Shown: piece after piece, positions 11,196 through 59,312 of the stretch | Layout: each line of letters starts with the position of its first letter | How positions within the stretch are numbered: position 1 is the first letter of the stretch | From: Candidatus Endomicrobium labiotermitis | GTDB taxonomy: Bacteria; Elusimicrobiota; Endomicrobiia; Endomicrobiales; Endomicrobiaceae | Reading direction: 5' to 3' | DNA length: 64,000 bases | NCBI GenBank assembly: GCA_009778965.1 | Contig: WRFE01000001.1 | Location: 49,117-113,116 of the forward strand | The notes under the pieces: generated by a model | Databases searched by the model: none | The model's input: only the letters and a program-made list of their open reading frames with translations | Told to the model about the DNA's origin: nothing | Program-made: the position numbers and the translations under genes

Positions 11196-12314
11196 GTGAA
11201 AACAAGATTTGCCGTTACGGGTTTAGGATTAGTTTCCCCGCTTGGAACCGGCGTTGAAAAAAGCTGGCAGAGATTGATTAACGGCGAAAGCGCCGTTCGT
11301 TATGAAATAAAAAATGAAGCTTTTCTGGCAAGAACAGAAGGCTTTGATATGCCGGAAAACATCCGCCAATTTGCTATGGGTTTTCTTGCCGCTTATGAGG
11401 CTTCGGCAAACGCAGGACTTGCAACTTCTAATTATGAGAAAAACCGCATAGGTTTATCCTGCGGTGAAAGCAAACCAAATTTATTTCACAAAAATGACTT
11501 CAGCAATCCCTTTCCCGAACAACTCAAAAACATATTGAAAATTGAAGGACAAATAAGCTGCGTGTCTGCCGCTTGCGCTACGGGTATGTTAACCGTTATT
11601 AAAGGTTGCTCCTTAATAGAAAACGACATTTGCGATGTGGTTATCTGCGGGATTTCCGAAACCTCAATTCATCCTTTATATATATCGGCGTTTAAAAACA
11701 TGGGCGTTCTTTCTAAAAAAGGCTGTAAACCTTTTGACAATGGGAGAGACGGTTTTGCCATAGGCGAAGGGGCGGGGTTTATAGTTATTGAAGATTTGAA
11801 AAAAGCGGTCTTAAGAGGCGCAAAAATTTATTGTGAATTAGGAGGCTTTGCCTCCGGAATTTATACTAACGACACTATTAATATAAACTCATCAAACGGT
11901 ATGTATAACATCATAAAAAATGCTGCCGGAACAGAAATTCCGGATTTTGTACACACACATGGTACGGGAACTAAGCTGAACGATTATTATGAAAGTGAAG
12001 CGATTGAACGGCAATTACGAATTACTAATTACGAATTACGGAATGAAGGAATGCCTTTTGTGTCTTCTACAAAAGCGGCAACGGGGCATATGCTTGGAGT
12101 TTCAGGAATGACAGGAGCAATATTTTCAATACTTGCCGTAAGAGACAATATTGTACCGCCAACTTTAAATTTCAAAGAAACCGACATTCCTTTCGGATTA
12201 AAATATGTTAAAAACAACAAACAGGCTGTGCCTGTTAATTCGGCATTATCTCTGTCTTTCGGCTTCGGCGGACAAGGCGCCGCACTATTTTTTAAACGCA
12301 CTCCTTCTTTTTAA
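11196..12314 (+). CDS. Beta-ketoacyl-ACP synthase, FabF-like
   Basis: VTGLGLVSPLG, SAACATG (Cys), HTHGTGT (His), KAATGHMLGVSG (His). Confidence 0.85.
   Translation: MKTRFAVTGLGLVSPLGTGVEKSWQRLINGESAVRYEIKNEAFLARTEGFDMPENIRQFAMGFLAAYEASANAGLATSNYEKNRIGLSCGESKPNLFHKNDFSNPFPEQLKNILKIEGQISCVSAACATGMLTVIKGCSLIENDICDVVICGISETSIHPLYISAFKNMGVLSKKGCKPFDNGRDGFAIGEGAGFIVIEDLKKAVLRGAKIYCELGGFASGIYTNDTININSSNGMYNIIKNAAGTEIPDFVHTHGTGTKLNDYYESEAIERQLRITNYELRNEGMPFVSSTKAATGHMLGVSGMTGAIFSILAVRDNIVPPTLNFKETDIPFGLKYVKNNKQAVPVNSALSLSFGFGGQGAALFFKRTPSF
12011..12043. repeat. Family E repeat inside the KAS CDS
   Basis: gcaattacgaattactaattacgaattacgga, encoding QLRITNYELR. Confidence 0.7.
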
Positions 12315-14918: not shown

Positions 14919-14945
14919 CATCAAAAAATGTAGTTTCCCAAAGTT

Positions 14946-15027
14946 GTCACCCTGAGCGAAGCCGAAGGGTCTGCCGTTAAAGGCATATGTTTCGACTACA
15001 CGGTTGCACCGTTCCGCTCAACATGAC
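14946..15027. repeat. Palindromic repeat family A, full copy (82 bp)
   Basis: gtcaccctgagcgaagccgaagggtctgccgttaaaggc...gttccgctcaacatgac, near-identical to 1769..1850. Confidence 0.85.
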
Positions 15028-15050
15028 AGACAGAGACAATATTAGATTTA

Positions 15051-23504: not shown

Positions 23505-23643
23505 AATAAGACTCCTTTTATATAATATTCTACTCTATGTGACTTATTTGTCATTGCGGGGAGGAAGCAATGTTTCCGACGAAGTAATCCATTTTAAAAG
23601 CAATGTGGATTGCCATGTCAAGACTTTGTCGTCTTTCAGACCC

Positions 23644-23698
23644 GGTGCGCTCACATCTCGCGCCCGTTCGTGACTCGCGCTCCTTATTCGTCGCGCAC
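23644..23698. repeat. H element copy 1, nested in a family-G-like repeat
   Basis: ggtgcgctcacatctcgcgcccgttcgtgactcgcgctccttattcgtcgcgcac. Confidence 0.75.
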
Positions 23699-23767
23699 TC
23701 ACCCCCGCAATGACTACAGAACATCAATCGTCTTTAATTCGTCATTCGTAATTTGTAATTGTCTTTT

Positions 23768-33387: not shown

Positions 33388-33487
33388 CGCCCTCTCCTTA
33401 ATCCTCTCCCTGACAAGGGAGAGGAAAGAAAGACAAAAATTCTGTTTCCCCTCTCCATTGTCAGGGAGAGGGCAGGGTGAGGGAGCG
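33388..33487. repeat. Family F palindromic repeat, full unit, between oppB and oppC
   Basis: cgccctctccttaatcctctccctgacaagggagaggaaag...cctctccattgtcagggagagggcagggtgagggagcg. Confidence 0.85.
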
Positions 33488-34462: not shown

Positions 34463-34490
34463 TTATGTCCTTTGCTTACAATAATACTAT

Positions 34491-34525
34491 GTCACCCTGA
34501 GCGAAGCCGAAGGGTCTGCCGTTAA
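34491..34525. repeat. Left half of a split family A repeat
   Basis: gtcaccctgagcgaagccgaagggtctgccgttaa, identical to the left half of 14946..15027. Confidence 0.85.
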
Positions 34526-34533
34526 GATTAACA

Positions 34534-34821
34534 CTATAAAATAGTTTTATACAAATCACTCCATGATTTATTACTTGTTTCTATAAGCAAAATTTTCTTT
34601 TCTCTTCGCCAGCCCTTAAGTTGTTTTTCTCTTTCTATTGCTTCCGTTACATTATTAAACATTTCGGCATAAACCAATTTATTAACTTTATATTTCTTTG
34701 TAAATCCCGGAACAAGCCCTTCCTTATGTTCATATACTCTTCTTGCTATATCATTTGTAATGCCGATATACATAACACCATCTTTTTTACTTGCCATTAT
34801 ATAAACACAATAATTTCTCAT
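34534..34821 (-). CDS. GIY-YIG endonuclease domain small protein
   Basis: CVYIMASKKDGVMYIGITNDIARRVYEHKEG...FTKKYKVNKLVYAEMFNNVTEAIEREKQLKGWRREKKILLIE. Confidence 0.9.
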   Translation of the reverse strand: MRNYCVYIMASKKDGVMYIGITNDIARRVYEHKEGLVPGFTKKYKVNKLVYAEMFNNVTEAIEREKQLKGWRREKKILLIETSNKSWSDLYKTIL

Positions 34822-34840
34822 AATCTTTCATCAAATTAAA

Positions 34841-34887
34841 CTGCAGATGTTTCGGCTACGCAACTATGTTGCTTCGCTCAACATGAC
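34841..34887. repeat. Right half of the split family A repeat
   Basis: ctgcagatgtttcggctacgcaactatgttgcttcgctcaacatgac; matches the right half of other A copies. Confidence 0.8.
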
Positions 34888-34915
34888 AAACAATGACAGA
34901 CAACAACAAAATCCT

Positions 34916-42168: not shown

Positions 42169-42295
42169 CGCCCTCACCTTAATCCTCTCCTCCGTTTCAC
42201 TTCGGAGCCGGTGCGCTCACCACTCGCGCCCGCGGCAGACATGTGCTCCTTATTCGTCGCACTGCCGCCCTGACACGGGAGAGGAAAGTACTACA
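42169..42295. repeat. Family F half-unit flanking the DUF559 gene (right, inverted), interrupted by an H element
   Basis: cgccctcaccttaatcctctcc[insert]ctgacacgggagaggaaag; uninterrupted equivalent at 33388. Confidence 0.8.
42191..42269. repeat. H element copy 2, nested in a family F repeat
   Basis: tccgtttcacttcggagccggtgcgctcaccactcgcgcccgcggcagacatgtgctccttattcgtcgcactgccgcc. Confidence 0.8.
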
Positions 42296-54664: not shown

Positions 54665-54692
54665 AGATTGCGGGTCAAGCCCGCAATGACGA
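54665..54692. repeat. Family C repeat
   Basis: gattgcgggtcaagcccgcaatgacgac. Confidence 0.75.
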
Positions 54693-54705
54693 CAACAGCA
54701 GTGTT

Positions 54706-54775
54706 GTCACACTGCGCGAAGTCAAAAAAGGCAGATGTTTCGGTTTCGCAACTACGTTGCTTCGCTCAACATGAC
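54706..54775. repeat. Family A repeat, shorter copy
   Basis: gtcacactgcgcgaagtcaaaaaaggcagatgtttcggtttcgcaactacgttgcttcgctcaacatgac. Confidence 0.8.
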
Positions 54776-54801
54776 AATACTAGATAATAAGGATGATTGA
54801 C

Positions 54802-55090: not shown

Positions 55091-55129
55091 TTATGTATTT
55101 TTTGCTAAGGATTATATTAAAAGGATAGA

Positions 55130-55187
55130 GTGCTCACCATCTCGCACCCGTCGCCAAGCTTGTGCTCCTTATTCGTCGCACGGCGAC
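55130..55187. repeat. H element copy 3
   Basis: gtgctcaccatctcgcacccgtcgccaagcttgtgctccttattcgtcgcacggcgac. Confidence 0.75.
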
Positions 55188-55224
55188 TGACGCTTGCGAC
55201 GATAAAACACAATTTTGCAAAGGA

Positions 55225-59168: not shown

Positions 59169-59312
59169 TCATGTTGAGCGAAGCAACGTAGTTGCGTAGT
59201 CGAAACATCTGCCTTTTAACTGCAGTTCCGGGGCGCTCACATCTCGCGCCCGTCGCAGACTCGTGCTCCTTATTCGTCGCACTGCGACACCTTCGACTTC
59301 GCTCAGGGTGAC
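59169..59312. repeat. Family A repeat (reverse orientation) interrupted by an H element
   Basis: gtcatgttgagcgaagcaacgtagttgcgtagtcgaaacatctgcc...accttcgacttcgctcagggtgac. Confidence 0.8.
59227..59288. repeat. H element copy 4, nested in a family A repeat
   Basis: ttccggggcgctcacatctcgcgcccgtcgcagactcgtgctccttattcgtcgcactgcgac. Confidence 0.8.

Follow-up and report, generated by a model that had tools for sequence, protein, structure and literature searches.

What is the 79-bp insert that interrupts a repeat in the genome of Candidatus Endomicrobium labiotermitis, and by what route did it come to lie there? In the window, that is, the whole stretch of 64,000 nucleotides that was analysed, positions 42169-42290 hold a family-F repeat (flanks CCTCTCC and GGGAGAGG) that is broken by an insert at 42191-42269, and a family-F copy at 33388-33428 is without it, just as a sequence-only reading of the window had stated. 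The comparison of a filled with an empty site that this reading drew from the pair is real, the copy at 33388 being a paralogue, and an orthologous empty site also exists: in G003, a sister species of the same genus, the spacer between tRNA-Arg and the downstream deformylase-like gene reads CCCTCACCTTAATCCTCTCC followed directly by CTGGCAAGGGAGAGG, with no insert. Because this spacer contains more than one family-F piece in both the host and G003, the family-F unit in G003 is likely, rather than proven, to be the one-to-one counterpart of the host copy. The same spacer is only about 11 bp long in G002, and a covariance-model search returned no match at the equivalent place in G001, G002 or G003.

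The inserted element, here called H, runs on the minus strand in the order hp2 (GGCAG...CTGCC), hp1 (GGGCGC..GCGC) and a variable hairpin, hp0 (CTCCG..CGGAG), and covariance model R1 matches it on that strand at 42205-42270 with 81.5 bits. The double hairpin proposed from the sequence corresponds to the two conserved hairpins, to which hp0, lying at the start of the insert on the strand then read, is usually added as a third; the strand had been taken the wrong way round. In alignment A2, for which 58 H copies were aligned on the reverse strand under a specified two-hairpin structure, 93.6% of the cells are paired and double-sided changes occur in 14 of the 16 pairs. The covariation score of A2 is 0.438, compared with 0.156 after shuffling (none of 500 shuffles reaches it) and at most 0.117 in sliding controls. 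Non-canonical cells are G.A 50 times and C.T once, and G.U 18 times and A.C six times; since the G.A pairs and most of the G.U pairs are confined to the minus strand, the strand that folds is the complement of the one first read.

On the sense strand, hp2 consists of a lower stem, a bulge of 5 or 6 bases, the stem GYGC, GA/GA and a C-G pair around GAATAA, and hp1 of GGGCGC, GA/GA, the short loop GATGT and GCGCCC; hp0, which varies in sequence, usually follows hp1. Both conserved hairpins have fixed loops, tandem G.A motifs and stems whose sequence is free to vary, and in 18 of the 58 copies two Watson-Crick pairs of the hp2 lower stem are replaced by an additional GA/GA. The element measures 60-80 bases, and its 5' end is GGG in 43 and CAG in 7 of the 58 aligned copies. 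Ten near-identical variants with additional sequence in the hp1 loop (L039, L046, L067-L070, L073) suggest a recent amplification in G002, to which this variant is confined among the loci read; the hp0 of these ten differs from copy to copy and is self-complementary throughout.

The core GTGCTCCTTATTCGTCGCAC occurs at four places in the window (three exact, one with two mismatches) and at none in shuffled sequence. The other copies, all on the minus strand, lie at 23639-23704 (82.5 bits), in one half of a palindromic repeat beginning GTCATTGCGG; at 55122-55189 (75.6 bits), where the copy is of type B, with the 5' end CAG and the 3' end TATCCTT; and at 59225-59290 (91.5 bits), in the middle of a composite repeat extending from GTCACCCTGAGCG to CGCTCAACATGAC. 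The view of H as a short, structured, non-coding element, cleanly inserted in a repeat, is supported, and it occupies many unrelated sites, both genome-wide and in relatives: pattern and covariance-model searches found 23 copies in the host genome (G000, 1.89 Mb), and more in relatives, with matches at E <= 1e-5 in 29 of the 341 Elusimicrobiota genomes and, around one Candidatus Ratteibacteria member, in 17 of 146. In the species collection, pattern matches came from Endomicrobia (Candidatus Endomicrobium embiratermitis, neocapritermitis, macrotermitis and others) and from one Candidatus Ratteibacteria bacterium, which belong to separate phyla; judged by these closest relatives, the window would come from a termite-gut genome of the Endomicrobium type. 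Copy numbers are highest in G008 (49), G344 (35) and G051 (33), and the single-contig G002, of the same genus as the host, has 18. G344 and G051 both fall outside Endomicrobiaceae; in G051, the best-scoring copies read in detail are at tRNA genes, and a homogeneous subfamily lies inside GTCATTCCTG repeats. Viral contigs, phages and plasmids gave no match to H, Rfam covariance models gave nothing at the gathering threshold (just sub-threshold chance matches), and a literature search with the core sequence gave no result. No description of such repeats came up when the main text of the paper on Endomicrobia genomes was searched by terms (PMC11257099).

Some orthologous sites are filled in one genome and empty in another. 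The copy at 42205 has no counterpart in G003, G002 or G001, and a second pair is provided by a FabF-like gene (11196-12314, plus strand), which carries no H in the window and an in-frame H copy in G001. Relatives that lack H could have lost it precisely; at 42205, where all three lack it, gain is favoured over loss. As family F is present in the G003 spacer without H, H has changed independently of F at this place. Part of the distribution is vertical, because some sites are common to different species, as at tRNA-Ser(GGA) in G000 and G003 (L003/L045, the copy at 55122 matching L045), so that inheritance and gain both contribute. Many copies may, moreover, have travelled in carrier palindromes, as illustrated by L004, L007 and L016, which share the same composite, so that independent movement of H is not required.

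The palindromic repeats that carry H comprise family F, the GTCATTGCGG-, GTCACCCTGA- and GTCATTCC-types and a G008-specific palindrome of about 200 bp. Most copies read in G008 (L112-L128, L094) are a genome-specific version in one arm of this palindrome, which starts with GGCAACGGCTTCTCGCAAGTTG. H and carrier repeats are also found in frame within FabF, RsmA and MnmE of the Endomicrobium genome G001 and within one ORF of G003; all four in-gene copies lie on the coding strand and in one reading frame, SPL..GGSPRNN..D. The G001 genes have predicted inserts of nested repeats of 60-75 residues (RsmA and MnmE, L134 933-1889 and 1951-3474; FabF, L136 1164-2495, minus strand), and PDB homologues of the three proteins lack 60-75 residues at the insert position. 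Where FabF of G001 has H, the FabF-like gene of the window has a different short repeat. Overall, H tends to share the strand of the genes beside it: by simple ORF calling, it is in the same-same arrangement 62 times and in the opposite-opposite arrangement 23 times.

On its own sense strand H mostly stands directly 3' of GG(G), and copies in repeats are flanked by no consistent target duplication. Some inserts (L033, L020, L022, L047, L071, L173, L174) have inverted copies of the target next to them, which point to fold-back synthesis at some stage, although the general test of the flanks is weak. The proposal that H always occupies the tip of a target-derived inverted repeat was rejected as a general rule, the flank complementarity being 7.86 and that of mismatched flanks 6.91. 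The flanks surpass all 60 mismatched partners in 10 of 160 H copies, as against 2 of 151 in the control; complementarity holds modestly for the tRNA copies of Endomicrobia (Wilcoxon p = 0.0012; 29 copies, not all independent), and the inverted-repeat pattern is clear in single cases.

H is also concentrated at tRNA genes, an association that, like the in-frame insertions in proteins, had not figured in the sequence-only reading. A tRNA lies within 180 nt of 48 of the 170 distinct H copies and of 16 of the 821 control windows (odds ratio 19.8, p = 2e-26), the 170 copies including sites at orthologous tRNAs and so not all being independent. The tRNAs involved are those for Ser, Ala, Arg, Asn, Gln, Glu, Leu, Thr, Met, Gly, Tyr and His, and 43 of the 48 linked copies lie on the tRNA strand. 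In the cases read in detail, an intact tRNA stands beside a partial tRNA copy, and H adjoins the partial copy. In Endomicrobia the insertion point typically follows a GG, either that of the D-loop or that of the anticodon stem, and in the Ratteibacteria group it is mostly at the T-arm; direct repeats of 16-47 nt extend from this point up to or beyond the tRNA end. tRNA-Gln(CTG) bears H in two families (L091, L164); at tRNA-Ser(GGA), G000 and G003 share a syntenic arrangement, and other genera have a similar one. The well-conserved DNA near tRNA-Ser codes for a cold-shock-like protein, and the idea of an integrase or island at this tRNA was rejected. On contig C25 of the host (L008 1440-2120), three tandem units of 174-179 bp directly precede an intact tRNA-Ala, each made up of a 5' piece of tRNA-Ala(CGC), one copy of H and a spacer. 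At L020 760-1640, a group I intron (Rfam RF00028) seems to split the tRNA that stands beside the H-bearing partial copy.

Movement by a Y1/RAYT transposase, as had been suggested for the insert, is not supported: PF01797 (Y1/RAYT) has no match in the host (99.97% complete), in the single-contig G002 or in the H-rich G023 and G032, several Y1-bearing genomes are without H, and no clear correlation is seen between Y1 and H copy number. RVT_1 reverse transcriptase was not found in the H-rich genomes checked (G000-G003, G008, G023, G027, G030, G032 and G051), and a resident reverse transcriptase was rejected as the mover. Alignments A1 and A2 contain two hairpins and no terminal GTAG or CGTC tag, and readings of H as an attC site or a self-cleaving ribozyme were set aside because no matching core was seen by eye. 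The mover may be another protein, or may arrive with transient elements, or H may ride on errors of replication and recombination.

H is probably a new family of non-autonomous mobile hairpin element, namely a selfish repeat with two strand-specific hairpins that is acted on in trans, although the failure to identify a mobilising enzyme in the genomes examined counts against this explanation. A trans-acting factor or nuclease would recognise the conserved loops and move H, either as RNA or as single-stranded DNA; in the genomes examined, the mover is not a resident enzyme of either the Y1/RAYT transposase or the RVT_1 reverse transcriptase kind. Copies would tend to survive where a folded, open-frame RNA is harmless, such as in loops, in tRNA copies near an intact tRNA and in surface loops of proteins. 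One specific route at the RNA level is improbable; here, folded H RNA would be joined into transcript loops after GG, the targets being the D-, T- or anticodon-arm regions of tRNAs and palindromic RNAs, and the chimera would return to DNA, leaving partial tRNA duplicates, without a conventional resident reverse transcriptase or transposase. It is unlikely that H is a passenger, in which case the nested REP-like palindromic repeats would be what moves, and H would be amplified with them as conserved cargo or as a spacer hairpin. Many copies do lie within GTCAT.., CCCTC.. or G008-specific palindromes, several of them as identical composites, and precedents exist in REP dimers that have structured spacers and in REPs that lie within palindromes (PMC3733652). 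However, H is conserved far above any carrier, it occurs in unrelated carriers and at tRNA copies in two phyla, and the G003 spacer equivalent to 42205 has family F without it.

The strand bias at tRNAs, the shared syntenic site at tRNA-Ser(GGA) with its counterparts in other genera, the recurrence at tRNA-Gln(CTG) in two families and the combination of kept loops with covarying stems would also be expected if H functioned, or had come to function, as a structured RNA within leaders or trailers of tRNA transcripts, the dispersed copies being by-products. This is nevertheless an improbable account, as H is present in just a minority of related genomes, the tRNAs concerned vary by lineage, copy-rich genomes have most of their copies away from tRNAs, and the copies within protein genes argue against a role at tRNAs. 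RAYT/Y1 enzymes act on hairpin-bearing single-stranded substrates and insert near palindromes, which fits the form and position of H; that a resident transposase of the RAYT/Y1 (IS200/IS605-like) group moves H as a REP-type element is still very unlikely, given that PF01797 has no match in the host, G002, G023 or G032 and that both a clear copy-number correlation and a GTAG-type tag are lacking. Covariation could arise without selection if stems change on both sides in one step, because template switching during replication perfects quasi-palindromes. The hp0 of the ten G002 variants, wholly different and yet always a hairpin in otherwise near-identical copies, and the inverted target copies beside some inserts agree with such a process, which could act together with mobility; as the whole explanation it is extremely improbable, since it leaves unexplained the conserved loops, the one-strand tandem G.A, the dispersal and a C-G to G-C swap in the hp2 loop.

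As a mobile hairpin element, H would appear to work most like mitochondrial double-hairpin elements (DHEs) and, in genes, like Rickettsia palindromic elements (RPEs). The DHEs of Allomyces mitochondria (Paquin et al., 2000), as described in PMC2800124, resemble H in measuring tens of bases, in having two hairpins and no coding capacity, in being dispersed and in lacking flanking duplications in repeats; their presence varies between close species, as H has optional orthologous sites. RNA intermediates were proposed for them because flanking duplications are missing (described in PMC2800124, citing Paquin et al., 2000). Compared by description, H differs in its bacterial chromosomes, strand-specific tandem G.A, link to tRNAs and partial tRNAs, and in-frame insertions. 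RPEs, some of which correspond to CGTC REPs (PMC3733652), are palindromic repeats found both in and outside genes, and their in-frame insertion in protein genes has a parallel in the predicted inserts of FabF, RsmA and MnmE; H differs from them, again by description, in its two-hairpin fold with fixed loops, its other taxa and its mainly tRNA-linked position in low-copy genomes. REP, BIME and REPIN repeats with RAYT are likewise short palindromes nested in other palindromes, and of the REP superfamilies GTAG and CGTC the latter includes families without an associated transposase, a precedent for the carriers of H (PMC3733652, PMC2817692). Unlike REPs, H has no GTAG/CGTC end tag, has two hairpins rather than one, and comes from a host in which no resident Y1 was found. 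Integron attC sites are single-stranded folds that are conserved above sequence and have extrahelical bases, features that H shares; no R/L core sites or cassette genes were seen with H.

Selfish elements of the double-hairpin and palindromic kinds have a history of decades and, to our knowledge, no mover is known for them. In the case of H, a covariance model defines the family cleanly, some orthologous sites are filled and others empty, the strand and the preferred sites (GG, tRNA loops) are given, and the hosts belong to two phyla; as neither Y1 nor reverse transcriptase was found in its hosts, H makes movement of such elements directly testable. It also indicates that selfish repeats are tolerated within essential enzymes and near tRNA genes in small genomes of the symbiont type. 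The host genome is dense in further palindromic families (GTCACCCTGAGCG, GTCATTCCGGACTTGATCCGGAATCC, AGATTGCGGGTCAAGCCCGCAATGAC), yet no Y1 transposase was found in it; in the window they lie at 1767-1854, 14944-15031, 34490-34889, 54665-54777 and 10401-41731.
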